DNA from: Thermosulfuriphilus ammonigenes
GTDB taxonomy: Bacteria > Desulfobacterota > Thermodesulfobacteria > Thermodesulfobacteriales > ST65
DNA: 64,000 bases
Assembly: GCF_011207455.1 (NCBI RefSeq)
Contig: NZ_CP048877.1
Span: forward strand, 302,576 to 366,575
Reading direction: 5' to 3'
Shown: piece after piece, positions 32,308 to 51,326 of the stretch
Numbering within the stretch: position 1 is the first letter of the stretch
How the letters are laid out: each line of letters starts with the position of its first letter
The notes under the pieces: generated by a model
Database searches by the model: none
What the model was told of the DNA's origin: nothing
The model's input: the letters and a program-made list of their open reading frames with translations, nothing else
Position numbers and translations under genes: made by a program

Positions 32308-35300
32308 GGCAAAGGTTCCACCCTTACGGCACAGACCTTATATTCCGGAGTCATGGTCTTAGTATCCACACCCGGGCTGGTAAGGAGGTTGACCGGGGTT
32401 TCGGGGTGATGGAAGGCCATAAAGACACAACCAGGCTGGCTCTTGTCTGTTACCTTTACCCTAACCTTGATTTTCCCCCTTCTAGAGGAAACCCGAACCA
32501 TTTGGCCATCGCGGATGCCCAAGGCCTGGGCGTCTTGAGGGTTCATTTCCAAGAGCTCTTCGGGACCGATAATTTCAAACCCCTCGGCCCTTCTGGTCAT
32601 GGAACCATTATTAAAGTGAACCAGCCGGCGTCCAGTGATGAGAATAAATGGATAGTCCCGATCAGGCAGTTCTTCTGAGGGAACATAATTGGCAGGGACA
32701 AATTTGGCCCGCCCTCTGGGGAAGCTCTCGGTATGCATCCTGGCTATCCCTGGACGACCAGGCTCCGGACAGGGCCAATGAAGACCCTCAGGCCCCAGAG
32801 TCTGATAAGAAATTCCCTTAAAGGGCGGGGCCAAACGGGATATCTCGTCCATGATCTGCCCGGGATGATCATATTTCATGGGATAACCCATAGCTTGAGC
32901 CAGACGACAGACAATCTGCCAGTCTGGCAGGGCCTCCCCCGGAGGATCAACGGCCTTAAAGAAACGCCTTACCCGCCGCTCACCATTAGTGTAAGTACCC
33001 TCTTTCTCAAAAACACAGGCCCCAGGAAGAACCACATGGGCCAACTTGGCTGTCTCTGAGAGAAAAATATCCTGGACAATAAGGAGCTTGAGAGACTTAA
33101 GGGCCTCTCGAATACATCCGGCATTACCCCCGGTTTGGGCCGGGTCATAACCAATAATGTAAAGGGCCTTAAGATCGCCTTTGAGAGCCGCTTGATACAT
33201 CTGGGGTTCCATGAGCCCCTTTTCCGTGGGAGGGGCCACCCCCCAGAGCTCTTCAAACTTTTTAATGGCTACTGGATCAGCCGGGCTCTGATAGCCAGGA
33301 AGCACATACGGCAGACAGCCCATGTCACAGGCACCCTGAACATTGTGCTGACCTCTGAGAGGATTTATTCCCGCCCCTTCACGTCCGACCTGACCGGTAG
33401 CCAGAACTAGATCAGCCAGGGCAATAACGCCCTCCGTACCACCCTTATGCTCAGCTACCCCCAGGCCGTAGAGGATCATGGACCGTTCTGCTGTAGCGAA
33501 AAGCCTAGCGGCTTCGATGATCTTCTCTTTAGGAACCCGGGTAATGGCCTCGACCCGATCGAGAGGAAATTCTTCAAGAATGTACTTCTTTAAGCCTTCA
33601 AAACCTTCGGTTCGTTCGGCAATAAAATCTTCATCATAAAGGTTTTCTTTAAAGATGACATGTAACATGCCATTAACCAGAGGAACATTGGTGCCAGGCT
33701 TTAAGGGAAGCCAAAGATCGGCCCTTCGGGCCAAATCGGTCAGACGAGGATCAACGACGATAAGTTTGGCCCCGGCCTGGGCCGCCTCCATTATTTTAAG
33801 ACCGATGATGGGATGGGCCTCAGTGCTATTGGCCCCAAAGACCATCAGGACCTGGGCTTTATAGATATCAGCAAAGGGATTGGTCGCCGCACCGGAACCG
33901 ATAGTGGCCGCGAGACCCGCGACCGAAGGCGCATGTCAGACCCGGGCGCAGTTATCGACACTATTTGTGCCGATAACTGCGCGGGCAAATTTTTGGTAAA
34001 GGAAATTTTCCTCGTTACTACAGCGAGCTGAGGCCAAAACCCCTATGGCCTGAGGTCCGAGACTGTCCCGAATCTCCTTAAGGGAAAAGGCGGCAAACTC
34101 TATGGCCTCCTCCCAGGAGACCTCCCTAAACGGGGAGTCAATGCTGGTCCGAATAAGGGGTTTGGTCAGACGATCCTTGTGGCGATAGAAGGTGTAGCCA
34201 AAACGACCTTTAACACAAAGGTTGGCAAAGTTTGGAGGAAGATTCTCATTGGCCTTGATCTCCACTATCGTGCCACATTTGGTGTGAATTTCCAGGTTAC
34301 AACCGGTACCGCAGAAGGTGCAGACACCTGGAACTTTAGTCATTTCTGAAGAGGAGGCTGGCAGAACAACTGTCTTCTTCGTTAGGGCCCCCGTAGGACA
34401 AGCATCCACACAGGCCCCGCAAGAGAGGCAATTGTCCTTGAGTCTGATGGAAATTTCCGGCACTTGGCCATCATTAATGGAAAGCTCAAGGGCTCCATAG
34501 GGACAGGCCCGCTCACACCGAGTACAGGCAATACACTTGTTGGCATCAACAATAATAAAGGGATGGCTACTGTCTACCGGAACCCTGAGGCGAGTAGGGG
34601 CGTGGGAAACCTTGGCCTGATGTTCTATGATTTGATCCCGGAAGCTACATTTAGAAAGACCCAGACAACCACAGGAAAGACAGCGGCTGGCCTCCCGACG
34701 GGCCATAGCCTCATTGAAACCGAGCTCTACCTCCTCAAAGTCTCCCACCCGGACTTCAGGAGAACGCTCGGGCATCCTCTCCTGAAGTTTTATGGTGTAC
34801 TCCTGATAGTTGCGTAAATCAACGTCCTCAAAACGACGGCCTTTTGTAAAGTTATATCGTACCGTCGAAGAGGACTTAACCTTTACCCCTCGAAGATAGG
34901 CATCAATGGCCTCAGCGGCCCGCCGGCCGGCAGCCACGGCCTGAATAACTGTTCGAGGGCCAGAGACCAAATCTCCGCCCGCAAAGATTCCCTCCAGATT
35001 GGTCTTCATAGTTGAGGGATTGGCCTTAACCGTGCCCTTGGGGGAGACAGCCAGCTTGGCCTCAAGTTCATCAAAGGTGAGAAAAGAGGTGTCTGGCATC
35101 TGGCCCTGGGCCGAAATAACCGTACCGGCCTCCATAATCACCCGGGAACCCGGTACAGGCACTGGATGACGGACACCCTTTTTGTCCGGCTCGCCGAGGA
35201 CCGTCCGGGCCAGCTCCACGGAAAAGAGCCCGTTGCCGGTAGGCTCAACACGCATGGGAGTAGCCATAAGGAAAAAGCGAACCCCTTCTTTTTCGGCTTC

Positions 35301-36398
35301 ACGAATATCCCGCTGATGGGCCGGCATTTCCATTCGAGAACGAGGATAAATAACGGTAACCTCTTCAGCCCCCAATCTCCGAGCTGCCCGGGCGCACTCT
35401 ATGGCCACATCCCCGCCACCAAAGATGACCACCGGCTGACGAATCTCGGGCCTCAGTCCCTGATTTATTTGCCGGAGAAAGGAAAGCCCTCCCAGAAGAT
35501 GTTCGCTTCCCGGAACCTCCAAGGGCTTCTCCTTCCAGGCTCCGGTAGCAATAAATATGGCCTTGTAGCCTTCTTCCTTTAGGCTCTTGAGGCTAAAATC
35601 TTTGCCCCAGCGCTTTCCGGTGTGAACCTCTACTCCCAGGGAAAGGATATTCTGAATCTCTCGATCAAGGACCTTTTTGGGCAATTTGTATTCAGGAATT
35701 CCGTAACGGAGCATTCCTCCCAGCTCATCCATGGCCTCAAATATAACTGCCTGATGCCCCGCCTTAGCCAGATAGTAAGCCGCTGAGAGACCAGCCGGCC
35801 CTCCACCAATAATGGCCACCCTATGTCCTGTAGGGGGAGCCACTTCCTCCGGGGGCTCTCCATGTTGCATGGCCCAATCGGCTAGAAAACGCTTCAGGTG
35901 GTTGATGGCAATAGGCTCATCCACCAAGACCCGTCGACACCGCGGCTCACAGAACCGGGGACAGACCCGGCCTACCGAAAGGGGGAGAGGATTTCTCTCT
36001 TTAATGAGACGAAGAGCGGCAGCATACTGTCCTTGAGCAATGAGATTTACGTAACCTTGAACATTGATCCCCCCTGGACAGGCCTGACTACAGGGAGCTT
36101 TACAATCTCCATAGTGATAGGCAGCCATGGCCTCAAGGCGTTCTCGACGGTGTTTGAGAAGCTCCTCTGAGGCCGTGGTGACCACCATTCCCTCCTCCAC
36201 CGGGGTGGCACAGGCCCGCAAGGGAGAAGGTTGACCCTCTACCTCTACCAGACAGAGACCACAGGGACGATCCGAGGAACGTTTACCTTCTAGATGACAG
36301 AGGGTAGGAATGGTGATGCCCGCCTGACGCGCGGCCTGCAGAATGGTCATCCCTTCAGAGACTTCGACCCTTTTGCCATCTATCTGGAGTGTGATCAT
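32304..36398 (-). CDS. fdhA: Formate dehydrogenase catalytic subunit, selenocysteine-containing, with fused diaphorase-like and ferredoxin domains
   Basis: A 1364-residue protein if the in-frame UGA at 33936-33938 is read as Sec821: [17 protein letters not shown] is the conserved FdhA active site (usually CAR(L/V)UH). Residues 1-80 hold a [2Fe-2S] domain ([16 protein letters not shown]). Residues 95-560 are a glutamate-synthase-like flavodomain ([40 protein letters not shown]). Two [4Fe-4S] ferredoxin motifs follow ([24 protein letters not shown]). The molybdopterin domain starts at [12 protein letters not shown]. The enzyme reduces CO2 to formate, the first methyl-branch step. The fused flavodomain predicts NAD(P)H or bifurcating electron input. 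It is downstream of acsE on the same strand. Confidence 0.93.
33906..33938 (-). promoter_or_regulatory. SECIS element of fdhA
   Basis: Eleven bases after the UGA, GGTCGCG pairs with CGCGGCC (one G-U) around the 5-base loop GGTCT. GGUCU is the apical loop of the E. coli fdhF SECIS that binds SelB. This supports recoding of the UGA. Confidence 0.88.
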
Positions 36399-36488: not shown

Positions 36489-37382
36489 CTAGAGTTCCAA
36501 CCAGGATTCAGAAAAAATAGTCTTACCCATCAATACACGAACAGTCTTGTATATCTCTAACTCCTTCTCACTCAAACTACTAGGATCTGGCTCATCACCA
36601 TCCATCATGTCATGCACTAACTTCACCCAATCAGGATGCTCACCCTTCGCTATCTCCACTAACTCCTTGTCATACACATTCAATATCGCCGAATATATCC
36701 CATACTTCATCAACATCATCAAATAAACACGATCTAAATACGGACGTAAATGACGCGATACCCCATTCGATACATTCGATAAACCCACCGTACTCTTCGC
36801 ACCAGGCGCTATCTCCGGCAACATCGATAAAAACTCAAAACCATACGATAACTGATCCGCTCCCAACGTTATCGGCGTCGCTATCGGATCAAACCATATC
36901 CGCTCATTCGGTACACCAGCCTCATTCAACCTCATCATCAAATCCACCGCCATCGCCGCCCGCTCATTCGCATCACGAGGCATCCCCTCAGGCCCCCATA
37001 AAAGCGCTACCACATCCACACCACTCTCCGCCGCAACCGGTATCAACCTCTCCATACGCTCAGGCTGAGCCGATATCGAATTCATCAATATACGCTTCCG
37101 ACGAGAAGCACTAATCCCTGCTACCATCGCCTCAGGATTCGTCGTGTCTAACGATATCGGTACATCCACCTCACCCTCCACTACCTCCACTATCCACGAC
37201 GCTAACTCCGGACCATCCTTCTTCGCCGGACCTATATTCAAATCTAAATAATCCGCCCCTAACTCCACCTCCTCACGCGCCATACGACGAATAGGATCAG
37301 GATCCCTCTCCCTCATCGCTCGACCTATACTCCGAGACATAATGTTAATGCTCTCTCCTATACACACTACCTTGCCAGACAT
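36489..37382 (-). CDS. acsE: Methyl-tetrahydrofolate:corrinoid/Fe-S protein methyltransferase
   Basis: A 297-residue TIM barrel with pterin-binding signatures: CIGESINIMSRSIGRAM, ELGADYLDLNIGPAKKDGP, ISLDTTNPEAMVAGI, FDPIATPITLG and TVGLSNVSNGVSRHLRP. It moves the methyl group from methyl-THF to the cobalt of AcsCD. Start at ATG 37382 follows GGAGGGAG. Codon use departs sharply from the neighbours: Leu TTA/TTG, Ser TCG/AGT, Ala GCG, Arg CGT, Gly GGT, Ile ATA, and hardly any codon ends in C. The change begins at the start codon, so this gene is probably a recent replacement from another genome. Confidence 0.93.
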   Translation of the reverse strand: MSGKVVCIGESINIMSRSIGRAMRERDPDPIRRMAREEVELGADYLDLNIGPAKKDGPELASWIVEVVEGEVDVPISLDTTNPEAMVAGISASRRKRILMNSISAQPERMERLIPVAAESGVDVVALLWGPEGMPRDANERAAMAVDLMMRLNEAGVPNERIWFDPIATPITLGADQLSYGFEFLSMLPEIAPGAKSTVGLSNVSNGVSRHLRPYLDRVYLMMLMKYGIYSAILNVYDKELVEIAKGEHPDWVKLVHDMMDGDEPDPSSLSEKELEIYKTVRVLMGKTIFSESWLEL

Positions 37383-37399
37383 AACTCCCTCCTTATGGT

Positions 37400-38749
37400 T
37401 TAGGCCGCCTGCCATTCTTTAAGGTAAGAAGGCAGATGACTGGCTTCCCGAGGGCCGATAAGGATTTCCCAATCAGGAAGCTCTTCCTCCAGCTCCCCTT
37501 TAATGGAGGCCAGGTAGCCAGGAATTATCAACTTGCGATGTTTGACCTTCTCGGCGATACCACACTTTTTGACAAAATCGGCAATAGAGTCAGCCCCAAA
37601 CTTACCGGCGGCCCAGGCGGTAAGTACCGAAAGGCCCTCGGTGTCTTTTATGAGTAGCCAAGAAGGCACCCGGCTGGTTTCGATTTCGCCAGAGACAATA
37701 AAGTAAGTAAGGGCAAAATTACAGGTTACCAATACCGGACTCTCCTCATCCGGACCATTGATGGGATAGATCCCCTCCTGAACCACCAGGGGCTTCTGGG
37801 GATCGGTAAAGATATTCAGACGTTCTACCAAGAGAGGGAAGAGAATATCTCCTTTAAGGTCGGAGAGCACCACAATGCCGGCGTATTTAGGGATGAGAAC
37901 CGAGGCGATGAGGGCTTCCAGGAGATCGTCATCTGTCATCTCGCAAGGGAAGGTTATACTAGGATAGCCAAGAGGCCGGTATTTGTGCTTTATCGCTGCC
38001 CGGCGCATGGCGATCTGATCTTCATAGAGGGCTCGAATGGTTCGGGCCCCAGTATCGAGGACCAGATCCTTTAGGCCAGCCTTGCCGAGCTCTTCGGCCA
38101 GAAAGGCCGTCTCCCCGATATCCGCCCCCTTTACAGCCAAAGGAGCTCCCGCAGCCTTGGCCACCTCAGCCATGGCCTGATAGTTGTCCATGGTGGCCGC
38201 ATATAAAAGAGGTTTAAAGTCTCCACACACATCCGCCCCAGCCTTAAGGGCTTCAGGATCCTGGCTCATGAGGATAAGGGGAGCTCCGGGGATCTCCTCT
38301 CGAACCCTCTTGACGAGATTAACAAAGGCCCCTTTGTCTCCTGCATCCTTAATGGCCACCAGGTCAGCCTTGAGCATAATTCCTACCCGTTCATATTCGA
38401 GCTTCTTGAAACGCTCAAGGCGACCGGTAACCTCATCTTCGGCCATATCTGTAGTTATTAAGACGGCAATCCCGGTAGGATGTTCAAAACGCTTCTCATG
38501 CCGGAAAAGGACTGTTTCCCCACCACAGGAGAAGGTGTGATCTCCACCCCCCAGTTTTACGGTCCGAATGGGCGGAGCTGAGGCCTCGCTGATCTTGGCC
38601 TTGACCTCCTCAGAGACATAAGGACAATCAGCAATGTCCGTCTGACCAGCAGCCACCTTCATGGCAAAGGCCAGACAAGTGGGGAACTTACACTCACCAC
38701 AGTTCTTCTTTGGTAGCATCTGAAGGATCTGTATCCCTGTCAGTCCCAT
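37400..38749 (-). CDS. acsC: Corrinoid iron-sulfur protein large (gamma) subunit
   Basis: A 449-residue protein. The [4Fe-4S] site that reactivates cobalt is at the N-terminus: KKNCGECKFPTCLAFAMKVAAGQTDIADCPY. A TIM barrel follows (GERV-like strands such as VAIKDAGDKGAFVNLVKRV, PLAVKGADIGETAFLAEELGKAG) and a C-terminal corrinoid-binding part with PVLVTCNFALTYFIVSGEIE and WAAGKFGADSIADFVKKCG. It pairs with the AcsD half of the MetF fusion and carries methyl from methyl-THF to acetyl-CoA synthase. It lies 17 bases upstream of acsE. Confidence 0.94.
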   Translation of the reverse strand: MGLTGIQILQMLPKKNCGECKFPTCLAFAMKVAAGQTDIADCPYVSEEVKAKISEASAPPIRTVKLGGGDHTFSCGGETVLFRHEKRFEHPTGIAVLITTDMAEDEVTGRLERFKKLEYERVGIMLKADLVAIKDAGDKGAFVNLVKRVREEIPGAPLILMSQDPEALKAGADVCGDFKPLLYAATMDNYQAMAEVAKAAGAPLAVKGADIGETAFLAEELGKAGLKDLVLDTGARTIRALYEDQIAMRRAAIKHKYRPLGYPSITFPCEMTDDDLLEALIASVLIPKYAGIVVLSDLKGDILFPLLVERLNIFTDPQKPLVVQEGIYPINGPDEESPVLVTCNFALTYFIVSGEIETSRVPSWLLIKDTEGLSVLTAWAAGKFGADSIADFVKKCGIAEKVKHRKLIIPGYLASIKGELEEELPDWEILIGPREASHLPSYLKEWQAA

Positions 38750-38783: not shown

Positions 38784-40988
38784 CTAGACCAAAGGCGGCA
38801 TCTCCAAAGCCGGATGGCCGACCTTCTTCAGAAACTCGAGAACCTCCTCCTCTGTAGTGCCTACGCTCTCATCGGCAATCTTATCCAGAAGATCGGGCAT
38901 GCCTTCTTCCTCACAACGCTTAAGGAGTTTGTCCTTTAGCTCCTCTTTGAGCATCTTGGGCATCCAGACCACCCGCTTAAGCCCTCCCTCGGCTTTGAGG
39001 AACTTCCGACTGGTAATGTAGTGTTTGGAAACACCCAAAAAGCCCGGAGTCACCTGACCGCCGCCAACCATTCCGGCCATAGTGGTAAACTTCATCCCGG
39101 TAGGAGTCATTCCCAGATAGTCACGATTGACGATCATAATGCCGTTGCAGGCCGGAAGCATGGTGGCAATACACTCAAAGCAACCACAGGCCGTCATGGG
39201 ATCGACCATCAGGCTATAGAGAGAGACCCTTTCCACCTTGTTACGGCTATTTTTATAGACATATTCGTTGATTCCCTTGAACTGACCGAGAACCGGATCA
39301 ATACACTCTCCTTTGGGGACAGGCTGGTTAGGACCAGTGGGGTTGATCTCATAAGAAGCCTTACCATCGAGCCAGTTGTAGGCCCCACACATCCCCACCC
39401 GCTCCGGGGTAATGATGCAGACATGATTAGGGGCAAAAGACTGGCAAAGGGTACAGGAGTAGAAAATCTCTTCGGTCTCATCGGTCATACCCTCAATCCG
39501 GGCATCCCGGCGGGCATAGACCTGTTTGGCCAGCTCCATGATCTCCTTGACCTTATCTTCCTCGGTGTAAATGGTCACCTGAACCTTATCAATTATGGAA
39601 CCAAAATCTTGGTGAAGCTTAGCGTGAAGAATGCGGCCAATATGCTCAAATTTAAACCCCTTCTCTCGGGCCTGCTTGCTTACCCTGAGCCACATGATGT
39701 TTCTCTGGCCCACGTGCATAATGCCCTGGGCATAGTTGATGAGATGATGAAACTGACGCTCAATAATGGGCTCGAAATCCTCTTGCATGCTCCGACCGGC
39801 CACTTCCACCAAGATAGCCAGGGGAAGACGACTTCCCTCAGAAACTTCATCCATCTCCGGCCCCACCACCTCTACCTTGCCGTCCTGCACCTCATGCATC
39901 TCCCGAGAAAGGAGAAGCTCTACCGCCATGGTCTTACCACCGCCGCACTCAAGGTAGAGGTCGTCTTTACGGACGCGTTCCCCCTCAAAGGCCGGACCAT
40001 AGGAGACGGGAATATCGATCTTGGTGACCGTGACCTTAAGCCCTCTGACCTCGATGGCCTTCTGAACGATCTCCTCATGGGGAACATTGCTGACCACATG
40101 TTCATAGGTGCAGATTCCGGTGGGCAGAATCTGCGGGATATCCCAATCAGAGATGGTAGGGAAGCCCCAGTTTATAGCCCCAGCGGCATTGGCATACCAC
40201 TCGTCTGAGACCGGCCCGAAGGCAATAACAAAGGCAAAGGTTCGGTCCTTATTGTAGAGAAGATTGCCCAGATAATCTCCTGGTTTGATGCCCCCGAAGG
40301 CCAAAGCCACCCGACAGGCAAAACCTATGGCAAAGATGGCCGATGAGGTTGTCGGCCCAAAAGGAACCAGACGGGTGCTCCAGCCTATCTGAACATCCTG
40401 GTGGAGAAGTTGCTCGGCCATACGGCGGCCATCGGTATCCGAGTGCATAAAAACATAGAGGTTCTTTTCTTGAAGTTCACGGGCGATTTTGACGGCCGTC
40501 TCCTCAGAAGGAGGGGCCCCCAAAATGGCGGCAAACCCAGGGGCCGTACCATCGACGAACTCCACCCCCCTCTTTCGGAAGATGACGTCATCAGCGGCCC
40601 CCAGCCAGATACGATCGCCAACAGGATCCTCTGTCTTGGTGTAAAAATCGGGATCCTCCAGGTAGCGAATCGCCTCGACAACCTCCTCAGCAAAAAAGGT
40701 GGCCATGCCGGCATCCAGGGCCGGACCAAGGTAAGGAAGCCAATGATGTTCATCTGGTACCGGCGGCAGAAGCTTTCGGGCCTCCTCCAGAGCCTCTTGA
40801 CAATCTCCGAGTTTTTTGACCGGAAGTCCCAGAATAGAATAGATAATCGGCAAATAATAGGCCGTATTTGGAAAGGCCACCTCCTGATCCTTTCCAAACT
40901 TCTTGACCGCCTCTTCATATTTGGCCCAGGCCTCATCGACAATCTTGTGGGACCCACGAATGGCAGCACTAGCGATGATCTTGGACAT
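38784..40988 (-). CDS. acsB: Acetyl-CoA synthase catalytic subunit (CO dehydrogenase/ACS alpha or beta)
   Basis: A 734-residue protein. A-cluster ligands are clear: SCTLCQSFAPNHVCIITPERVGMCGAYNW and TACGCFECI, which supply the [4Fe-4S] and the Cys-Gly-Cys nickel site. The N-terminal domain (about residues 1-310) is present (SAAIRGSHKIVDEAWAKYEEAVKKFG), so this is the bacterial, full-length form. It condenses CO from CooS, methyl from AcsCD and CoA into acetyl-CoA. ATG 40988 is preferred over an in-frame TTG 12 bases earlier. Confidence 0.95.
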   Translation of the reverse strand: MSKIIASAAIRGSHKIVDEAWAKYEEAVKKFGKDQEVAFPNTAYYLPIIYSILGLPVKKLGDCQEALEEARKLLPPVPDEHHWLPYLGPALDAGMATFFAEEVVEAIRYLEDPDFYTKTEDPVGDRIWLGAADDVIFRKRGVEFVDGTAPGFAAILGAPPSEETAVKIARELQEKNLYVFMHSDTDGRRMAEQLLHQDVQIGWSTRLVPFGPTTSSAIFAIGFACRVALAFGGIKPGDYLGNLLYNKDRTFAFVIAFGPVSDEWYANAAGAINWGFPTISDWDIPQILPTGICTYEHVVSNVPHEEIVQKAIEVRGLKVTVTKIDIPVSYGPAFEGERVRKDDLYLECGGGKTMAVELLLSREMHEVQDGKVEVVGPEMDEVSEGSRLPLAILVEVAGRSMQEDFEPIIERQFHHLINYAQGIMHVGQRNIMWLRVSKQAREKGFKFEHIGRILHAKLHQDFGSIIDKVQVTIYTEEDKVKEIMELAKQVYARRDARIEGMTDETEEIFYSCTLCQSFAPNHVCIITPERVGMCGAYNWLDGKASYEINPTGPNQPVPKGECIDPVLGQFKGINEYVYKNSRNKVERVSLYSLMVDPMTACGCFECIATMLPACNGIMIVNRDYLGMTPTGMKFTTMAGMVGGGQVTPGFLGVSKHYITSRKFLKAEGGLKRVVWMPKMLKEELKDKLLKRCEEEGMPDLLDKIADESVGTTEEEVLEFLKKVGHPALEMPPLV

Positions 40989-41022
40989 AGTTCTTCTCAA
41001 CCCCCCTGTTATAGTCTCGTTT

Positions 41023-43677
41023 TTAAACCATGGCCTTGATGAGGGCCTTGGCCAGGGCGATAGCCCTGGGATGACGCATTATCAAGAAATCGCCGCCAGC
41101 CAGCATCATGCAGACAGCGGTAATAGCCTCCATAAGGACGGCCCGCCTCTCTTGATCCCCCAGCAGATCATCACTGGGAAGCCCGGCCTCTTTGCTCTTC
41201 CAGACCTCTCGCCCCAGATTACAGATAAAGGGAACCTGAAGCTTATCATCCTGCTGATAGAGGGCGGCCAATCTAATCCTTTCCATAACCGAATAGGTGT
41301 ACTCCAGCCCATACCCCAGAGCTCCAATAGAGGGATCCATAAGAATCCGCTCCAGAGGAACTCCAAGGTTTTCCAGGAGGATGTTGAGCTGCTTAGCCAG
41401 GTTTACGTCTATAGGGCTTGAGGCCACTACAGGATATTGATAGGCCAAGGCTGTGGCCCCCAGTTGGCGGTAATTCTGATCAACTACCGGACCGATAAGG
41501 ACGTTTTTGGGGCCCACCACCTCAGCTACCTGACGCATAACCTCGGTGTCTTTCTCGGCGTTACCGCACCCCCAGATAATCAAAGGAACATCCACAGCCT
41601 CAGAGACGGCCTTGGCTACCTGGGCCACCTCCTCGGCCGGACGATCCTGGGCGTTAGGATCAGCTCCAACAGCGTAGAGGCAGATAGCCTCGGCTTGATA
41701 AGATTCAACGCACTTTTTGGCCCAGGCCGCCGGATCACCGATGACATCGCCAAAGTAACGCAAAAGCGGCTCTGGCCACTCCTCAGGTTTGGTATCCAGG
41801 ACCTCCATGGCTATGCGAGGAGGATTTTTCATCTCTCCCTCAAAAAGATGGAACGGCAGGGCGTTGGTCCCCCCGGCGGCTATGGCCTTATCTCCAACGC
41901 CAATGGTTACCTCCTTGATCTCTCCATTTGCCGGATCAAGGACCACATCTTTGGGAATAGAACGAAGGCGATCAAATAGAGACTTCTCTTCCCGGGCCAA
42001 TTCAAACTCAAGGGCCTCCACCGGGGCAGGAGGAGCCTCCTCTTTGGGAGGTTCAGCCTCTTTGGCCTCTTTTTCCCTCTCAGCTATCAGGGTCTCCACC
42101 CGGGAAAGGCCTTCCTTGGCCTCGGGATGATCCGGCTTGAGTTTAAGGACGGCCTCAAAGGACTCCTTGGCCTTATCAAGGTCTTCGGCCTCAAGAGCCG
42201 TCCGAGCACCGGCCAACAATTCGGCTATCTCCCGGCGCTCCTTTATCTCCGTTAGGCCTTCTCTGGCCGGAGCATTTTCCGGCTCAAGTTCAAGGACTTC
42301 CTTAAAATGCCCCTCGGCCTTATCAAGATCACCAGCATCAAGAGCGGCCTTGGCGGCAGTAATAAGGCTGGCCACCTTGGCGGCCTTTTCCTCCTCCTCC
42401 CGTTTGCGGGCCTCCTCTGCCGGAGCCTCCGCCTCAGCCGGGGCCTCAGGTGGAGGAGGCACTTCTGCCGAGGGTGGAGAGGGCTCAGATGGTCTGGCCT
42501 CAGCCCCAGCCCCCAGGAGGGTCTCTTCAAGGCCAGCAATACCTTTAGTCAGGGCCTCGGCCCCTTTCATTAAATCACCAATACCAGCCTTAAGGACCGA
42601 GAAAACCTCCTTCAGGGCCTCGATGGGAAGAGAGGGAGCCGCCGGTGGTGTTACCTGAGGCGGAGCCTCAGGAGCGACCTCCTCCGGAGCCTCTTCCTTG
42701 GGCGGTGTCACCTCTAGAGGCTCCTTAGAGACCAGACGAACAGTAGGTTCAACTTCTTCCATCTCTGGCCGGGGATAAAGACCGGCCGCTTTGACGATCT
42801 CCGGAACAGCGGCCTCCCACTCAATGGCCATAATATGGACCCCGGCTACTCCGGGAATCTCCCGAAGTTGACCGATTATCTCCACGGCGATTTTAATCCC
42901 CTCCTCGCGGGGATCCTTGGCCTCTTTCATTCGTTTTAGCAAATCGTCTGGCACATCAAGCCCAGGAACAAATTTCTTCATATAGTTGGCCATACCGGCA
43001 GACTTAAAAGGCGTCACTCCAGCCAGAATATAGACTTTCTTATCCAGGCCGAGATCCCGAACCATTTCCATAAACTTGGCAAAGCGCTCTACGTTATAGA
43101 CGATCTGGGTCTGGATAAAGTCTGCACCAGCTTCGATTTTTTTGGCCAGACGATAGACCCGAAACTCAAAGGGATCGGCGAAGGGATTAGCTGCCGCTCC
43201 CAGAAAGAATCGCGGCTCCTGGCCCTTTATCTCCTCCCCGCACTGAAAACGGCGCTCATCGCGCATCTCCCGGACCATGGCCAGCATCTGAATGGAATCT
43301 AGATCAAAGACCCCCTTGGCCTGAGGATGATTGCCGAACTTGTGATGATCGCCGGTAAGACAGAGAAGATTCTTAATCCCCAAGGCCGCCGCCCCCAGAA
43401 GATCAGACTGCATGGCAATCCGGTTGCGATCCCGGCAGGTCATCTGAATAACAGGCTCGATCCCCTCCGTCATAATAAGGACGGCCGAGGCGATAGAAGA
43501 CATGCGCACAATAGCCGTCTGACAATCAGTGATGTTGGCGGCATCAACATAGCCTTTGATCAGACGCGCCTTCTCCAGGACCACCTCTGGATCGGCGTTT
43601 TTAGGCGGACCAATTTCAGCGGTGACGGCAAACTCTCCGGAGGTTAAAACCTTCTCTAAATGGCTTCCTGACTTCAC
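41023..43677 (-). CDS. metF-acsD: Fusion of methylenetetrahydrofolate reductase (MetF) and corrinoid Fe-S protein small subunit (AcsD)
   Basis: A single 884-residue frame. Residues 1-300 are MetF: FAVTAEIGPPKNADPEVVLEKA, DAANITDCQTAIVRMSS, LLCLTGDHHKFGNHPQAKGV, FIQTQIVYN, YILAGVTPFKSAGMANYM. Residues 300-440 form a Pro/Ala/Glu-rich linker with an amphipathic helix (LKEVFSVLKAGIGDLMKGAEAL). Residues 440-555 have two TPR-like repeats (ALDAGDLDKAEGHFKEVLEL and TALEAEDLDKAKESFEAVLK). Residues 575-884 are AcsD (GDKAIAAGGTNALPFHLFEGEMKNPP, IGALGYGLEYTYSVMERIRL, NLGREVWKSKE). I see no frameshift or stop at the joints. The two halves normally are separate genes doing consecutive methyl-branch steps. 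Confidence 0.93.
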   Translation of the reverse strand: MKSGSHLEKVLTSGEFAVTAEIGPPKNADPEVVLEKARLIKGYVDAANITDCQTAIVRMSSIASAVLIMTEGIEPVIQMTCRDRNRIAMQSDLLGAAALGIKNLLCLTGDHHKFGNHPQAKGVFDLDSIQMLAMVREMRDERRFQCGEEIKGQEPRFFLGAAANPFADPFEFRVYRLAKKIEAGADFIQTQIVYNVERFAKFMEMVRDLGLDKKVYILAGVTPFKSAGMANYMKKFVPGLDVPDDLLKRMKEAKDPREEGIKIAVEIIGQLREIPGVAGVHIMAIEWEAAVPEIVKAAGLYPRPEMEEVEPTVRLVSKEPLEVTPPKEEAPEEVAPEAPPQVTPPAAPSLPIEALKEVFSVLKAGIGDLMKGAEALTKGIAGLEETLLGAGAEARPSEPSPPSAEVPPPPEAPAEAEAPAEEARKREEEEKAAKVASLITAAKAALDAGDLDKAEGHFKEVLELEPENAPAREGLTEIKERREIAELLAGARTALEAEDLDKAKESFEAVLKLKPDHPEAKEGLSRVETLIAEREKEAKEAEPPKEEAPPAPVEALEFELAREEKSLFDRLRSIPKDVVLDPANGEIKEVTIGVGDKAIAAGGTNALPFHLFEGEMKNPPRIAMEVLDTKPEEWPEPLLRYFGDVIGDPAAWAKKCVESYQAEAICLYAVGADPNAQDRPAEEVAQVAKAVSEAVDVPLIIWGCGNAEKDTEVMRQVAEVVGPKNVLIGPVVDQNYRQLGATALAYQYPVVASSPIDVNLAKQLNILLENLGVPLERILMDPSIGALGYGLEYTYSVMERIRLAALYQQDDKLQVPFICNLGREVWKSKEAGLPSDDLLGDQERRAVLMEAITAVCMMLAGGDFLIMRHPRAIALAKALIKAMV

Positions 43678-43698: not shown

Positions 43699-44370
43699 CT
43701 ACCGGGCCAGAAGATCCTCACGCTTTCGTCTTCTTAATCCCCCATGACCTGCTGGAGTCCAATCCTTAGCCGGCATAATCTGCTTCATGTTTTCCAGCCG
43801 ATTAAGTCTCTTGAGACGTTCATATATCTCGTGCCAGACACAGGGGACATCAGGACGGATCTCACACTTTCCACCTTGAGATCCACCGCAAGGACCATTG
43901 AGAAGATTTTTAGCACAGCGAGCAATGGGACACAGACCGGCTGTGAGGTGAAGGATACAATCACCACAGCCCCGACACTTCTCCTCCCAACTGCCAGCCT
44001 CCAGATTGGCCCCATAGAAAGTGGTATTTAAGGCCGGAAAAACGAGGGTATCCGGATAGCGGTCAGCGATAAGGTTCACCCCCACACCACAGGCCATAGA
44101 AAGTATGGCTTCAAAGTCTTTGGCCATCTCCGCCAGAGGCTCAAGGTATTCAGGATCACATTGGCGGACAAAAGTCTCCTGGAGAACCTCCATCTCCTGA
44201 CCGGCCTTTTTGGCCGCCAGTTTAAGGGCTTCAGCGAGGGTGGCTACCTCCTTCTCGCCCCCGGCATTACATACAGCTACACATCCCCGACAGCCTAAAA
44301 TCAGGACCTTTTTGAAGCTCTTGACCATAGAAAAGATCTCTTCAAGCGGCTTCCTCTCAGCAATAATCAT
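43699..44370 (-). CDS. metV: MetV, Fe-S/zinc partner of methylenetetrahydrofolate reductase
   Basis: A 223-residue protein of the MTHFR C-terminal family. It starts with EERKP-like MIIAERKPLEEIFSMVKSFKKVLILGCRGCVAVCNAGG, then CDPEYLEPLAEMAKDFEAILSMACGVGVN. A Cys-rich C-terminal half follows (CRGCGDCILHLTAGLCPIARCAKNLLNGPCGGSQGGKCEI). MetV receives electrons and passes them to MetF flavin. It lies 21 bases upstream of the metF-acsD fusion and directly follows hdrC/mvhD genes, as in the Moorella metVF-hdrCBA-mvhD cluster. Confidence 0.92.
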   Translation of the reverse strand: MIIAERKPLEEIFSMVKSFKKVLILGCRGCVAVCNAGGEKEVATLAEALKLAAKKAGQEMEVLQETFVRQCDPEYLEPLAEMAKDFEAILSMACGVGVNLIADRYPDTLVFPALNTTFYGANLEAGSWEEKCRGCGDCILHLTAGLCPIARCAKNLLNGPCGGSQGGKCEIRPDVPCVWHEIYERLKRLNRLENMKQIMPAKDWTPAGHGGLRRRKREDLLAR

Positions 44371-44419
44371 AGGCTACTCCTTGAAACATTTACCGAATAA
44401 GAATTTCGGAACCAGCTCA

Positions 44420-44836
44420 TCAAGCAGCCCCCTGCTTCCAGAGAGGCTCAAGGGAAAGAAGGGTGGCCTCCAGATCCCTGGCGGCCTGAATAAAAGGGCC
44501 GGCGTCAAGCCGCGGAGAATACAAAAAGACAATCCGCTCCGGAGATATCTCCAGTTCTTCCAAAATCTTCTTAAGGTGTTGAACTCTCATGGCTGCCCGC
44601 TTGCTTCCGGCCGCATTATGACACTGCCCCTCTTCACAGCCTACCACCAGAACCCCTTCAGCCCCCTGATGAAAGGCCTTCAAAACCTCAGCTGGCTCCA
44701 AACGGCCGGAACAGGCCAAAGGACGGATCTCCAGCCCTCGGGGGGCATCAGGAATAAGACGGATCTCCTCGGTCGAATCAGGGACACTATAACGACAGCA
44801 AAAAGCAACAATTCTAGGCCAGATCGGCTGTTCCAT
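44420..44836 (-). CDS. MvhD-like hydrogenase iron-sulfur subunit, divergent copy
   Basis: A 138-residue protein starting at ATG 44836 behind AGGAGAGG. Two of the three MvhD motifs are clear: LACSGRLEP and GVLVVGCEEGQCHNAAGSKRAAMRVQHLKKIL. The first motif is altered, FCCRYSVPDSTEEI in place of the usual CxWCxYxGAD. MvhD is the [2Fe-2S] protein that carries electrons into HdrA. A second, weakened copy beside a canonical selenocysteine MvhD suggests a structural or branch-specific role. Confidence 0.8.
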   Translation of the reverse strand: MEQPIWPRIVAFCCRYSVPDSTEEIRLIPDAPRGLEIRPLACSGRLEPAEVLKAFHQGAEGVLVVGCEEGQCHNAAGSKRAAMRVQHLKKILEELEISPERIVFLYSPRLDAGPFIQAARDLEATLLSLEPLWKQGAA

Positions 44837-44846
44837 CTTCCCTCTC

Positions 44847-45407
44847 CTAGGCATCCTGAAACTGCCCCACGGTCTCCTCAGGGGCCTTTTTGAGCTTTAT
44901 GGTCTGGGCCGGACACTCAATCACACAAATACCGCAGGCCCGGCATAATTTTTCATCAATGACAGCGTAACCATCCTTGACCACCCTAGGAGCCCCAAAG
45001 GGACAGACCCGGACACAAGTCAGACAGGCCACACAGTGTTCGGGATCCACTACGGCCAACTTGCCCCACTCAAAAAGCCTTTCTTTGGTAACCAGGCCTC
45101 TCCTCCGGGCCATCTCCCTTAAGGCAGCGATTACCTTGGCCGGAGCCACCTCCTGAGGACAGACCGGAAGGCAGGATTCACATTGGGAACACTCCCAGAT
45201 CATCTCTCCAGCCACAAGCTGCTCTTCCAAGCCCAAGGAGACCATATGAACAATTTTGCGAGGATCAAAGCCCTGGCTGGCTCGGGAGACCGGGCATATC
45301 CCCGAGCAAGCTCCACAAGTAAAGCAATAGGCTGCGGCCTCTCCGCCAGGGATGGAAGCCAGTTCCCTTAAAAAATCCTTTTTCAGCTCTTTGGGCGCAA
45401 TAGTCAT
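44847..45407 (-). CDS. hdrC: Heterodisulfide reductase subunit C-like protein with extra ferredoxin domain
   Basis: A 186-residue protein. The N-terminal 110 residues are HdrC: YCFTCGACSGICPVSR and WECSQCESCLPVCPQEVAPAKVI. The C-terminal 70 residues add a two-cluster ferredoxin (CVACLTCVRVCPFG and CRACGICVIECPAQTI) not present in methanogen HdrC. No HdrB (CCG-domain) gene lies in the cluster, so the protein probably passes electrons between HdrA and MetV rather than to a heterodisulfide. It is 3 bases after mvhD. Confidence 0.88.
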   Translation of the reverse strand: MTIAPKELKKDFLRELASIPGGEAAAYCFTCGACSGICPVSRASQGFDPRKIVHMVSLGLEEQLVAGEMIWECSQCESCLPVCPQEVAPAKVIAALREMARRRGLVTKERLFEWGKLAVVDPEHCVACLTCVRVCPFGAPRVVKDGYAVIDEKLCRACGICVIECPAQTIKLKKAPEETVGQFQDA

Positions 45408-45410
45408 AGC

Positions 45411-46175
45411 CTAAGCCCCCTCTTTTCTGGCCAAGGCGTAGCGGCCGTCTTCCTGGACAAGAACCTTTCTCTTGACCAGGGCCGCCAAAAGCTCCGAAAG
45501 CTCCTCCTCTTCAGCCCCCAAAGTGCTGGCCAGCTCACTGAGATCTTTGGGGCCCTTAGCCAGAAGAAGCTTTGCTCCCTCTGTTAGGGTTTCCGAACGC
45601 AAAGTCTTAAGGAGCTTGCTCTCCACCTTGGCGGCCAGGTGTTTGGGATCATAGTTGCCTTCTTTCTTTATCTCCCGGGCTAGATTGCCGTATAGACTGC
45701 GCAACCTGGTAGATTCCATGGCCCGGCGGGCCGCCTCCAGACGAAGAGCCAAAGCTTCTTCGGCAACACCCTCTTTGTCCCCCAAGGGACCGAGGTCTTT
45801 TATTTTCTGGGTAAATCCAGTCACCAGCTGGACAAACCGGGGAGCCTCCGCAGCCGAGGCCCACTCCAGAGTAAAACGCTCCGGACTAACCCCGGCTATC
45901 TCCAAAAGCCTTCGACTGACCTCAGCCATTATTAAAGCTTCGTAATTACCAGACTGGTAATGACATTCGTTCAGGTGTCACCCGCCGGCAAAGACCCCAT
46001 CAGCTCCGACCCGGAACCCCTCAACAATAAAGCGGGGATCCAGGCGGCCGGTACACATCACTCGGATGACCCGAATGTTTGGGGGATACTGATAGCGGGC
46101 CACACCGGCTGAATCCGCGGCGGCGTAACAACACCAATGACAGAAGAATCCAAGTATGCGCGGATCAAAGGCCAT
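45411..46175 (-). CDS. mvhD: MvhD, selenocysteine-containing hydrogenase iron-sulfur subunit with winged-helix-like tail
   Basis: A 254-residue protein if the UGA at 45978-45980 is Sec66. N-terminal motifs: FFCHWCCYAAADSAG, MCTGRLDPRF, and ADGVFAGG-U-HLNECHYQSGNYEA, where most MvhD proteins have Cys (GCH...CHY). Residues 80-150 complete MvhD (RFTLEWASAAEAPRFVQLVTGF). The last 100 residues are an extension with a predicted winged helix (GPKDLSELASTLGAEEEELSELLAALVKRKVLV). Sec at this position is known in VhuD of Methanococcus. It lies between hdrA and hdrC. Confidence 0.88.
45945..45980 (-). promoter_or_regulatory. SECIS-like hairpin of mvhD
   Basis: Sixteen bases after the UGA, ATTACC and GGTAAT form a perfect 6-base stem with loop AGTCT. 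The loop resembles the GGUCU of bacterial SECIS elements, with A for the first G. Confidence 0.72.
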
Positions 46176-46196
46176 ACGCTCAACCTCACTCTCGTT

Positions 46197-49100
46197 TTAG
46201 GCCGCCTGCTGGGCCTTCTTTTCTACCACCTTCTCTCGCCCAAAGGCGTCAATCTGGGCAAAGATGCTTTCATCAGTAAAGCCTCCCATAGAGATGGCCA
46301 GGGTTGGACAATGGCTGGCACAGATACCACATCCTTTGCAGGAGGCAGCAATGGTCTGGGCTTTGCGCCGCTTGCCCACCTTGACCATCTCAATGGCCTT
46401 GTATGGACAGAGGCTGACACAAATTCCACAACCGATACACTTTTCTTGATTGACCCGGGAGACCAAAGGAGCCACACTTACTGAGCCCTTGGCCAAAGGA
46501 ATAGCGGCCTTTCCGGCTGCTGCCCGGGCCTGGGCCAAAGTCTCCTCAAGGGGCTTGGGGGAGTGGGCCAGCCCACAAATGTAGATCCCATCCACGGCCA
46601 CCTCTACAGGCTTTAGTTTGACATGAGCCTCGAGGAAAAAGCCCTCTCTGGTAAGGGGAGCCTTAAGGAGGCGAGCCAGAGGCTCATTGTCTGCAGGAGC
46701 AATTCCTGTAGAGAGCACAAGGTAACTGGGCTGGATAACTATATCCTCCCCAAGGAGAGAATCATGGAAGGTAACCCGCAGGGCCCCTCGGGAAACCTGC
46801 TCCACTTTTGGTTCGTTCTCCTTGCTATAGCGCACAAAGACAATCCCCTTGGCCCGAGCTTCGCGGTAGGCATCCTCACTAAAGCCGTATGTTCTCATAT
46901 CGCGATGAAGGATAAAGATACGGGCCTCTGGGTTAAGCTCTTTGAGACGCAGGGCGTTCTTAACCGCCTGCTGACAGCAGACCTTACTACAATATGAAAG
47001 CCCCTGGCCTCGAGAGCCCACACACTGAATCATGACAATATCTTTGGCCTTGGCCATAGTTTTTGGAGAAGACTTAAGGAGCCTTTCCAGATCAAGCTGG
47101 GTAATCACCCGTTTGTTTTGGCCGTAGAGATACTCACTGGGCTGATAAGGCTGGCCACCGGTGGCCACAATAATCACCCCGTGGTTGACCATCTCTGTTC
47201 CTTTAGCCGAGGCGATAGTAGAAGTAAAGTTACCTACATATCCAGAGATACTCTCCACCGTGGCCTCGGTGAAGACCTTAATCAGCTTGTGTCTCTTGAC
47301 CTTCTTTTCCAGCTCGGCCAGAAGGGCTTGGGGATCCTCTCCCCCTAAACCGGCAGTAAGATAACGAAGATTGCCTCCCAGCTTCTTCTCCTTCTCAACC
47401 AGGAAGCACTTAAAGCCCTGCTCGGCCAAGGAGAGAGCCGCCGTCATCCCTGCGGCTCCACCGCCAATGACCAGAGCGGCCGGTGTTACAGGGACACTTT
47501 GGAGCTCAAGGGGCTCTAGCTCCAAGGCCTTGGCCACAGCCATCCGTACCAGATCTTTGGCCTTCTCGGTAGCCGCTTCGGGCTCATTGGCATGAACCCA
47601 GGCACACTGATCCCGAATGTTAGCCAGATCAAAAAGGGCCGGATTAAGACCGGCGTCCCTTAGAGTCTCCTGGAAAAGGGGTTCGTGGGTCCTGGGAGTA
47701 CAGGCCGCCACCACAACCCGATTTAGACGAAGATCACGGATCTTCTCTACCATAGACTGCTGGGTATCCTGAGAGCAGGCATAGACGACGTTTTCGGCGT
47801 GAACCACTCCCGGAAGCTGGGCCGCGTATCTCATGACCTCGGCCACATCCACCACTCCAGCGATATTAATCCCACAGTGACAGACAAAGACCCCTACCCG
47901 CGGCTCTTCTCTCTCTAGGGCCTCATCTTCTTCCGGATAGACCTTTTCAATGATCTCCTGACCTCGGGCCTCCTTCAGAAGCTCCGAGGCCGCTGCCGCC
48001 ACTCCCGAAGCCTGAGTGACACTTTCGGGAATATCCTTAGGCCCCTGAAAGGCCCCAATAACAAAGACCCCCGGACGACTGGTCTCAAGAGGACGGCCCA
48101 TATCAGTAGCAGCAAACCTGTACTTATTAAGGTCGATCCCGGTGATCTCGGCGATCTTTTCGGCATCTTCAGGCGGAGCCAAGCCCACCGAGAGAACAAC
48201 CATGTCAAAGACCTCGGTATGATGACGGCCATCTTCAGTCACATAATGGAGTAAAAGATGGCGGCCAACCTGCTCCACCTTAGGTACCCGGGCATAGTGG
48301 ATCCTGAGGCCATACTTTTCGATCGCCATTTCTCTGGCCTCATCAAAACCCTTACCCTGGGTCCGGATATCCATGTAGAAGAGGGCCATCTCTACATCCG
48401 GATCATGTTCTTTAACCACCGAGGCCTCTTTGATGGCATACATACAGCAGACACTTGAACAGTAGCCCTGCCCACAGGAGACATCCCGGGAGCCAATACA
48501 CTGGAGGAAGGCAATCTTTTTGGGGTGGGTCAGGTCAGATGGCCTGAGAATAGCCCCCTCTGTAGGCCCGGAGGCGCACATAAGGCGTTCGAGCTCAAGA
48601 CTGGTAACCACATCCGGATACTTTCCATAGCCGTACCTGGCTAGAACCTCCTCCGAAACCCGACCGAAACCGGTAGCTAAAACCACGGCTCCAACTTCTA
48701 ACTCAACTTCCTCGGGCTGCTGTTCAAAGTCAATGGCTTTAGCCGGACAGACATTGGTGCATATACGACAGGTCTCGTGCTGAAGATAGAAACACTCTCC
48801 AGCATCTATATAATAGGTTGTAGGTACGGCCTGGGCGTAATCAATGTGGGCCGCCCGGGTGATGTCTAAGCGCTCATTGTAGAGATCAACCACCGGACGG
48901 GGACAATACATCGTACAAAGACCGCAGGCGGTACATTTATCGGCATCAACATAACGGGGCTTTTTGAAAACCCTGGCCCTAAAGGCCCCCGGGGCACCCT
49001 CAAGGGATCTTAGCTCGGCATTGGTAATGATTTCGATATTGGGAGACCGACCGGCCTCCACCAGTTTGGGCGCCAGAATTCAGAGACTACAGTCGTTGGT

Positions 49101-49334: not shown

Positions 49335-51326
49335 TTAGGTTGTCGGTCCGTGACACCCTACGCCCTGAAGTGGGGTGTCAAGCTGGCGCCTCATAGCCAT
49401 ATCAAAGAGGACGCGCTCCCGCTTCTTATCAAGGCCTAGGGCCTTTCTCTTTTGACGAATCTGATCAATCATAATGGAGGCAAAATCCTTGGCCTCCTTG
49501 GCCAAAAACCAGCGGGCTCCGTAGATTTCCTCCATCTCCTTAAAAAGATGATCCGTAGCCTCTTGAGACTTGGTGGTCGGAAAGGTAGGACCAAAGACAA
49601 CCGAAGCCCCGCTAGCCACAAAATACTGACCAATGGCTATAGCCTTCTCACTCATCCACTGAGGAGCACAACCAATGGCCGGAAGATCACTGATATCCTC
49701 TCCCAGGCCACCGGTGCGAACCATCTCGGTAGCGGCGATGAGAATCCGGCTGTTGTCCACACAAGAGCCCATATGAAGCACCGGCGGACAGCCGACAGCC
49801 TCCAGAACCTCCCTCAGCCCCTCACCGGCCAGCTCCGCAGCCTCTGGAGAAAGAAGGCCAGCCCGGCCAAGGCCGGTTGCCGCACAACCGGTGGTCAGCA
49901 CCAAGACGTTATTAGCAATGAGCTCTTTGGCCAGCTCTACGTGGACCTCATCCTGAATCCGGAAGTTATCACAGCCGACAATGGCCGCCACCCCGAGGAT
50001 GCGACCGTTGATGATGTTGTCGTTAAGGGGCTTATAAGAAGCCCGGAAGCGTCCACCCTGGATATAAAGGATGGTCTCATGACTAAACCCGGCAACCACG
50101 TCCATCTTGGCCTTGGGGATATAGACCTTGCCCCGCTTAGGAAAACGAGCAATGGCCCGACGGACAATATCCTTGGCCACCTCTAAGGCCCGATGATGAT
50201 CAAAGGGAACATGAGTCGCCCCGACAATTTCGGCCCGATCACTGGTGGTAATTACCTCGGTGTGGAAACAGCGGGCAATCTCCGGAAGAGACTGCATGAC
50301 ACACTGAACATCAACCACCATGGCCTCAACGGCTCCGGTGGTCAGGGCAATCTCTTGCTGAACAAAGCTACCAGCAATAGGGATCCCGCGACGCATGAGG
50401 ATCTCATTGCCGGTGCAGCATATTCCAGCCAGGTTGATCCCTTTGGCCCCGACCTTCTTGGCCTCGGCAATTATTTCCGGATCCTGAGCCGCCATGGCCA
50501 AGGCCTCAGCCAAAACAGGCTCATGACCATGAACCGTAATATTGACCATGTCCTCCTTCAGGACTCCCAGGTTGACCACCGTCCGAATGGGCACTGGGGT
50601 GCCAAACATTATGTCCTGAAGTTCTGTGGCCAGCATGGACCCGCCCCAGCCGTCAGCCAAAGCACACCGAGCAGCCTGGCGGAATATATGGCGAAAATCC
50701 TGATCCACCCCCATATGGGTTCGGTGCATGGTCTCCACCACTTCACGATCAATACCCCGAGGCACCACTCCCAGCTCCTGCCAAATTTCCTGGCGCTTTT
50801 GAGGAGCCCGACGTATAAAATGAAGGCTCCCCTCCTGCTTACCAAACTCCGCCAGGGCCGTCTCTCCCACCTCAAGGGCTAGCTGCTGAATGTCCTTCTC
50901 GGCGGGGTCTATGCCCAGCCAGGCAGCCATCCGGCGAAGTTTGAGGGTGTCTTTTATCTCGTAAGGGGTCTCCCCCTTTGCCGTAGCAATAAAGGCCAGG
51001 ACTGTCTCCCGGGCATGATCAGAGTGAGAAGCCGTACCGGCAGCCACTATCCGAGCGAAGTTGCGAGCCGCTACCGTAGAGGCGGTGGCCCCGCAGATGC
51101 CAATCATCTCCTCCACACCTTCGATAATCTGACAAGGCCCCATATTGCAGTTACGGCAACATGTCCCACCCTGGCCAAACAGACAGGGGGTAGCCCCTCG
51201 CTTCTCTACCCGGTGGGCAGCGGTGGTCACTCCCTGGGCCGGTTCCTGACAGAGAACCTCTCGGTTGACCAGGCACTGGATACTGGGACAGCCACCGTTA
51301 GACTTAAAACGCTTACTCGTATCCAT
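49335..51326 (-). CDS. cooS: Anaerobic carbon monoxide dehydrogenase catalytic subunit
   Basis: A 663-residue CooS/AcsA. The N-terminal cluster ligands are PCLFGQGGTCCRNCNMGPCQI. Later family blocks are ICCTGNEILMRRGIPIAGSFVQQE, VYIPKAKMDVVAGFSHETI, VLTTGCAATGLGRAGLLSPEA and VLHMGSCVDNSRILI. They supply the Ni-Fe-S C-cluster site. In this context it reduces CO2 to CO for acetyl-CoA synthase. It is the first gene of the cooS-hdrA-...-acsE run and has its own promoter at 51361-51389. The hdrA gene starts 78 bases downstream. Confidence 0.95.
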   Translation of the reverse strand: MDTSKRFKSNGGCPSIQCLVNREVLCQEPAQGVTTAAHRVEKRGATPCLFGQGGTCCRNCNMGPCQIIEGVEEMIGICGATASTVAARNFARIVAAGTASHSDHARETVLAFIATAKGETPYEIKDTLKLRRMAAWLGIDPAEKDIQQLALEVGETALAEFGKQEGSLHFIRRAPQKRQEIWQELGVVPRGIDREVVETMHRTHMGVDQDFRHIFRQAARCALADGWGGSMLATELQDIMFGTPVPIRTVVNLGVLKEDMVNITVHGHEPVLAEALAMAAQDPEIIAEAKKVGAKGINLAGICCTGNEILMRRGIPIAGSFVQQEIALTTGAVEAMVVDVQCVMQSLPEIARCFHTEVITTSDRAEIVGATHVPFDHHRALEVAKDIVRRAIARFPKRGKVYIPKAKMDVVAGFSHETILYIQGGRFRASYKPLNDNIINGRILGVAAIVGCDNFRIQDEVHVELAKELIANNVLVLTTGCAATGLGRAGLLSPEAAELAGEGLREVLEAVGCPPVLHMGSCVDNSRILIAATEMVRTGGLGEDISDLPAIGCAPQWMSEKAIAIGQYFVASGASVVFGPTFPTTKSQEATDHLFKEMEEIYGARWFLAKEAKDFASIMIDQIRQKRKALGLDKKRERVLFDMAMRRQLDTPLQGVGCHGPTT

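Follow-up and report, generated by a model that had tools for sequence, protein, structure and literature searches.

In Thermosulfuriphilus ammonigenes, methylenetetrahydrofolate reductase (MetF) and the small subunit of the corrinoid iron-sulfur protein (AcsD; CFeSP) are encoded by a single open reading frame, the two complete domains being joined by an arm of 270 residues (about residues 306-575). Read from the sequence, this MetF~AcsD fusion, which occurs in a branch of sulfur-metabolising bacteria that fix CO2, points to neighbouring steps of the fixation pathway being held together physically. The frame was analysed in a window of 64,000 nucleotides (contig NZ_CP048877.1, positions 302,576 to 366,575), to which the coordinates in Table 1 refer. 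A good ribosome-binding site, AAGGAGG, lies just upstream of its GTG start.

A complete MetF and a complete AcsD in one frame had been proposed in the first-pass annotation of this DNA, and Pfam, NCBIfam, AlphaFold2 and VIA-align bore this out. The MTHFR domain (PF02219) spans residues 7-299 (E 9e-43, 147 bits against a cut-off of 24) and is of whole length, as 2-287 of the 287 profile positions are covered. A fold search directed mainly at the two barrels matched residues 4-302 to T. thermophilus MTHFR (VIA-align Z 29.2; 7th5/1v93) and residues 576-884 to 2h9a_B (Z 43.4, 45% identity over 304 residues). Alignment with Escherichia coli MetF (b3941) placed E21, D110 and Q191 on Glu28, Asp120 and Gln183, all three being invariant. 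The CdhD/AcsD domain (PF03599) begins at residue 589 (E 9e-43, above cut-off). Among the NCBIfam profiles for AcsD, NF003376 was passed (392 bits, cut-off 280), NF003377 aligned with residues 584-883 (E 5e-145) at 484 bits, below its cut-off of 527, and the stricter NF040759 gave 333 bits, under its cut-off of 430. Both barrels were mostly confident in an AlphaFold2 model made with 27 sequences. Each domain of the fusion is typical of its family and, because the domains are complete, the MetF catalytic residues are kept and the folds match, both halves appear functional.

Table 1. Coordinates of the fused frame, its parts, the surrounding cluster and related fusions (positions in the window, or in the locus named)
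Feature	Position	Strand	Basis
MetF~AcsD ORF	41023-43677	(-)	884 codons without stop, GTG start
MetF domain (methylenetetrahydrofolate reductase, WLP/acetogen type), residues 1-305	42763..43677	(-)	PF02219, fold match, catalytic residues
Low-complexity E/P/A-rich arm, residues 306-351	42625..42762	(-)	pLDDT about 26-45; composition
Coiled-coil helix (type A element), residues 352-388	42514..42624	(-)	AF2 helix, heptad, conservation
Low-complexity arm, residues 389-419	42421..42513	(-)	pLDDT < 50
Helical bundle with two TPR motifs, residues 420-540	42058..42420	(-)	PF14559, PF07719; pLDDT 82-86
Low-complexity arm, residues 541-575	41953..42057	(-)	pLDDT about 36-48
AcsD domain (CFeSP small subunit) and stop, residues 576-884	41023..41952	(-)	PF03599, NF003376, 2h9a_B
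CODH (AcsA/CooS)	49335..51326	(-)	TIGR01702 E 4e-188
HdrA-like flavin/Fe-S protein	46197..49061	(-)	sequence; conserved gene order
HdrC-like Fe-S protein	44847..45407	(-)	sequence and place in conserved cluster
MvhD/FlpD-like electron-transfer subunit	44420..44854	(-)	PF02662 E 6e-26
MetV, MetF partner	43699..44370	(-)	PF12225 E 1.7e-38
AcsB, acetyl-CoA synthase	38784..41000	(-)	NF040764, E 0
AcsC, CFeSP large subunit	37400..38749	(-)	NF003195 E 1e-179
AcsE, methyl-THF:CFeSP methyltransferase	36489..37415	(-)	PF00809; NF005719 E 7e-61
AcsC~AcsE fusions, three Thermodesulfobacterium-like genomes	L161 461-2863, L162 131-2458, L166 14111-16561
AcsD~CODH fusions, about 1120-1150 aa	L140 3816-7184, L141 1390-4794, L142 1425-4874

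The fused gene is part of a minus-strand Wood-Ljungdahl cluster in the order CODH, HdrA, a small ORF, HdrC-like, MvhD, MetV, MetF~AcsD, AcsB, AcsC and AcsE. The MetV, MvhD and Hdr subunit genes (43699-49061) adjoin the MetF half, as expected of a Moorella-type MetFV-HdrABC-MvhD complex, and AcsC is encoded in the same cluster as the AcsD half. No second AcsD was found in the T. ammonigenes genome (one contig, 2.29 Mb); as the sole AcsD, the fusion must serve the pathway. A second MetF is encoded at G000 C1:1227327-1228673 (L002), a protein of 504 aa that is 30% identical and carries a MetV-type domain behind its MetF domain, and similar MetF~MetV frames of 506-651 aa are present in most fusion genomes. 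This second protein could serve biosynthesis, leaving the fusion to CO2 fixation. MetV, MvhD and HdrC are located elsewhere in Desulfobulbales-type genomes. In G195 the MetV gene belongs to a different operon, and because that operon is without MetF, the fused MetF is likely to be its partner in trans. A second AcsE (G000 C1:2172196-2173104; L180 3696-4608), 99.8% identical over 913 bp, is followed by a gene for a RACo-type corrinoid activator; G204 also has a second AcsE. A formate-dehydrogenase-like frame of 820 aa at 33600-36398 on the minus strand stops at a TGA (context NCARV-U-HAPSV), past which it continues open; this TGA is a probable selenocysteine codon.

The same joined frame was found in independent assemblies, including that of the isolate Thermodesulfatator autotrophicus (L035), which confirms that MetF~AcsD is a genuine fusion. 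Of the 395 genomes sampled from the phylum, 40 have it (count checked on fetched loci) and 254 have an AcsD match at 1e-40, with one such match in each listed fusion genome. About 50 genomes in all, that isolate and closed genomes among them, carry the fusion, and the recurrence of the frame in so many independent genomes rules out an assembly artefact to near certainty. When about 85,000 species were scanned for exact 8-residue patterns, a method of limited reach, further fusions turned up solely in this phylum, for example in Thermodesulfatator autotrophicus S606, Ca. Electronema aureum and a Desulfobulbaceae genome. Confinement to Thermodesulfobacteria-type genomes, as previously supposed, proved too narrow, the fusion being present in Desulfobulbales-type and Dissulfuribacter-type genomes as well. 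In one Desulfobulbaceae MAG (L038 8001-10873) a frameshift, possibly a sequencing error, breaks the AcsD half.

A single fusion event is the origin best supported by these sequences. One branch of the AcsD tree, with an SH-aLRT of 100, separates all fused forms and two split ones from the rest (L045 is labelled 'sep' in that tree solely since its contig begins inside the arm). In the MetF tree the fused forms lie on one side of a branch, with a support of 12, after long rows were dropped; by itself this tree speaks weakly for a single origin and does not prove it. Four unfused relatives (L040, L042, L074 and L088) have MetV, MetF, AcsD and AcsB as adjacent, separate genes, and because metF and acsD are neighbours there, loss of the stop codon between them is the simplest origin of the fusion.

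The long linker and the TPR-like repeats described in the first-pass annotation are both present, within the limits given in Table 1, but a coiled-coil helix between them had been overlooked. AlphaFold2 gave very low, disorder-like confidence at about 307-351, 389-419 and 541-575 (up to about 579), and a lone 37-residue helix at 352-388, of low pLDDT in the monomer model. TPR motifs lie at 438-530, where TPR_19 scored 36.8 bits against a cut-off of 25 in two stretches and both PF14559 and PF07719 were above cut-off. Across the fusions the arm measures 107-466 residues and is rich in E, A, P and K, with a composition that varies widely. TPR motifs also occur in the arms of Thermodesulfatator (L035) and of a 1000-residue group (L090, L100); Pfam detected none in the Electronema, Thermosulfurimonas-like and Caldimicrobium-like arms (L041, L108, L109), and arms without TPR otherwise resemble those with it. 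The feature kept across arms, as judged by conservation and profile comparison, is a short helical element, which is degenerate and below the profile threshold in five Thermodesulfobacterium-like genomes with short arms (107-116 residues). An essential docking role for the TPR repeats is not supported as a general feature, given their absence from several fusions, the range of arm lengths and the persistence of the helical element. Binding of AcsE or MetV by the arm, as proposed in the first-pass annotation, is a candidate role.

Two types of this element were distinguished. Type A, found in the Thermodesulfobacteriales, is among the arm's two most strongly conserved blocks; its core hydrophobic residues occupy heptad positions a and d at 82% and the other positions at 5-28% (p < 1/5000; 0 in 5000 shuffles). 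This pattern is that of a coiled coil with strict heptads, predicted to oligomerise. Type B is the best conserved stretch of the Desulfobulbales-type and Dissulfuribacter-type arms (conservation about 0.7-0.76, against an arm mean of 0.34-0.35), and its versions in these two groups match each other at 1e-8 to 1e-15. It appears as two short helices of low confidence in the Electronema model, and its only extra match outside fusions among 297 genomes was a weak one (E 0.003). A single element common to all lineages was considered but could not be demonstrated: the match between types A and B did not exceed that of shuffled controls, though comparing the profiles of type A and the Dissulfuribacter-type B gave a probability of 38%.

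The type A profile was then run over one family of 30 genomes. A single match, inside the fusion or a truncated contig thereof, was obtained in 20 of these, and no match in six, five of which could have the short-arm form (G065, G028 and G227 were checked). The remaining four, G100, G327, G414 and G417, had two matches each. In these four genomes MetF and AcsD are two genes: MetF stops just past the end of its domain, and AcsD, which retains the type A element at its N-terminus, has a new ATG and GGAGG site of its own. The second copy is at the N-terminus of CODH, encoded in the same cluster. Genomes of this family whose fusion matches the element have a single copy. One coiled coil on two enzymes of the pathway is what a role in assembly predicts, unlike a role as neutral filler. 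The four genomes are close relatives, so the split is probably one evolutionary event and its pairing with the CODH tag counts once.

Independent fusions join other neighbouring steps in related clusters. AcsC~AcsE fusions, joining the large CFeSP subunit to the methyltransferase through charged linkers of about 35-75 residues, occur in G100, G327 and G180. Since G180 also has MetF~AcsD, just two chains there carry MetF, the two CFeSP subunits and the methyltransferase. AcsD~CODH fusions, with an Ala/Pro-rich arm that includes a short helix-like stretch, were found in G026 and across the family of G312 (seven full-length examples); a single origin of this fusion was neither demonstrated nor rejected (AU p 0.25). 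The helix of this arm matched type A no better than decoys did. AcsD, recurring in several fusions and in tailed forms, is a repeated anchor point. The tailed forms have a low-complexity C-terminal tail of ~200 residues (L143, L144, L145, L148, L149), which in L143, L144 and L145 ends in a conserved helix-like motif, L(S)xVDKLLAQ(I/V)NRVN or SxVDKLLAQ(I/V)NRVN(K/R)R. The earlier suggestion that the fusion links the corrinoid carrier to the final folate-branch enzyme stands, and selection for tethering is supported by the roughly 50 genomes together with the AcsC~AcsE and AcsD~CODH fusions.

We lean towards the explanation that MetF is tethered to AcsD in one polypeptide by a flexible arm whose coiled coil gathers chains, or docks them, into a loose assembly. 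The AcsD half would pair with AcsC to form CFeSP, and the MetF half with MetV and, through MetV, with the Hdr/MvhD electron-supply proteins. The arm would keep the maker of methyl-THF within reach of the methyl acceptor and leave CFeSP free to shuttle between its methyltransferase AcsE and acetyl-CoA synthase, an enzyme that opens to admit CFeSP (PMC11321310). Newly made methyl-THF would then meet AcsE and CFeSP in one place, the steps from MetF through AcsE to CFeSP proceeding in one assembly. The coiled coil probably clusters several chains or fixes them to another enzyme of the pathway, which would bring the methyl-branch and carbonyl-branch enzymes into one loose assembly. We infer complex formation, a partner for the coiled coil and a kinetic benefit.

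Several points count against this explanation. In acetogens an untethered CFeSP is abundant and mobile. At the sequence level, types A and B are without detectable homology, and five short arms have a degenerate element. The covalent linkage between MetF and AcsD is dispensable, as the four split genomes demonstrate. A wider proposal, which we hold more tentatively and at somewhat less than an even chance, is that a scaffold of coiled coils and tethers holds the Wood-Ljungdahl enzymes in a single assembly. The same coil would act in the arm and, replacing the fusion, as N-terminal tags of AcsD and CODH; AcsD would be a hub, joined to MetF and to CODH in different clades, and AcsC is joined to AcsE in some.

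The fusion might instead merely fix production of the two proteins at 1:1, the stop codon between metF and acsD having been lost and the arm being neutral filler. This would fit the adjacency of the two genes within the same cluster of the unfused relatives, the wide variation of the arm in length and composition, and the later splitting of the fusion in one lineage without apparent harm. It is hard to reconcile with one strongly conserved helical element in the arm that recurs on the CODH of the split genomes, or with the fusion of other neighbouring steps, and we regard it as unlikely. We give even less credence to a role in electron supply, whereby the arm would bind MetV-MvhD-Hdr to CFeSP and so deliver low-potential electrons both to MetF and to a corrinoid that needs reductive reactivation. 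The MetV, MvhD, HdrC and HdrA genes do adjoin the fusion in most lineages, but MetV, MvhD and HdrC lie apart from it in the Desulfobulbales-type genomes, and the RACo-type activator encoded elsewhere in the genome gives reactivation its own enzyme.

Slightly more improbable again is that separate MetF and AcsD proteins are produced, through cleavage of the chain after translation or translation of AcsD from an internal start. A long unfolded arm is exposed to proteases, and GTG/TTG codons are present near the AcsD border (residues 553, 560 and 578), but the purine-rich stretches are too far upstream of these codons for a good start, and the fusion border does not show the clear SD site and ATG that the new AcsD gene of the split genomes has.

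MetF (with MetV) and AcsD of acetogens, represented by the MetFV-HdrABC-MvhD of Moorella and the CFeSP of Carboxydothermus (2h9a; 4djd), are the same enzymes with the same fold, and acetogen clusters share the neighbourhood of MetV, MvhD, Hdr, AcsB, AcsC and AcsE with the fusion. MetF and AcsD are separate polypeptides in acetogens, whereas here the 270-residue arm joins them. Another MetF is fused to an enzyme that uses methyl-THF in the bifunctional homocysteine S-methyltransferase/MTHFR (NF006396), whose MetF half is among the best NCBIfam matches of our fusion, at 242 bits and far under the cut-off of 453; its partner is the homocysteine methyltransferase rather than a CFeSP subunit. Folate-handling and corrinoid-carrying steps are placed on one chain with flexible linkers in the cobalamin-dependent methionine synthase MetH. 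MetH joins the methyltransferase and B12 domains, whereas MetF~AcsD joins the enzyme one step earlier to a CFeSP subunit, with AcsE separate. The E2 chains of 2-oxoacid dehydrogenases have Ala/Pro-rich flexible arms with a small docking element embedded between enzyme domains. This likeness is a works-like analogy, for which no sequence relation is claimed, and the fusion is without a lipoyl domain.

We found no mention of the MetF~AcsD fusion, the arm element or its re-use on CODH in the openly readable papers on the Wood-Ljungdahl pathway in these organisms. Papers on Thermosulfurimonas and Dissulfurimicrobium give methylenetetrahydrofolate reductase genes without noting the fusion, and a 2026 survey of the pathway in Desulfobacterota mentions neither MetF nor the fusion. 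The component domains were already known; what appears new, judged by those papers, is their combination, the conserved element of the arm and the re-use of that element on CODH. To our knowledge, it is not settled whether Wood-Ljungdahl enzymes mix freely or form an assembly that is held together. In this phylum, nature has linked consecutive steps through a covalent bond; one lineage later swapped the link for matching coiled-coil tags. The fused and split relatives, together with the coiled coil, offer genetic and biochemical handles on methyl-group channelling in an ancient CO2-fixation pathway, and parts of the fusion could be used for faster synthetic versions of it.

The fusion is also a warning for annotation, as labelling such a gene as MetF alone or AcsD alone conceals one half of its product. 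A separate observation concerns the short-arm Thermodesulfobacterium-like genomes, where a protein of 474-493 aa with a stretch like the C-terminus of CODH and 4Fe-4S domains is encoded at the usual place of Hdr (L163 9946-11367, L164 12009-13487).
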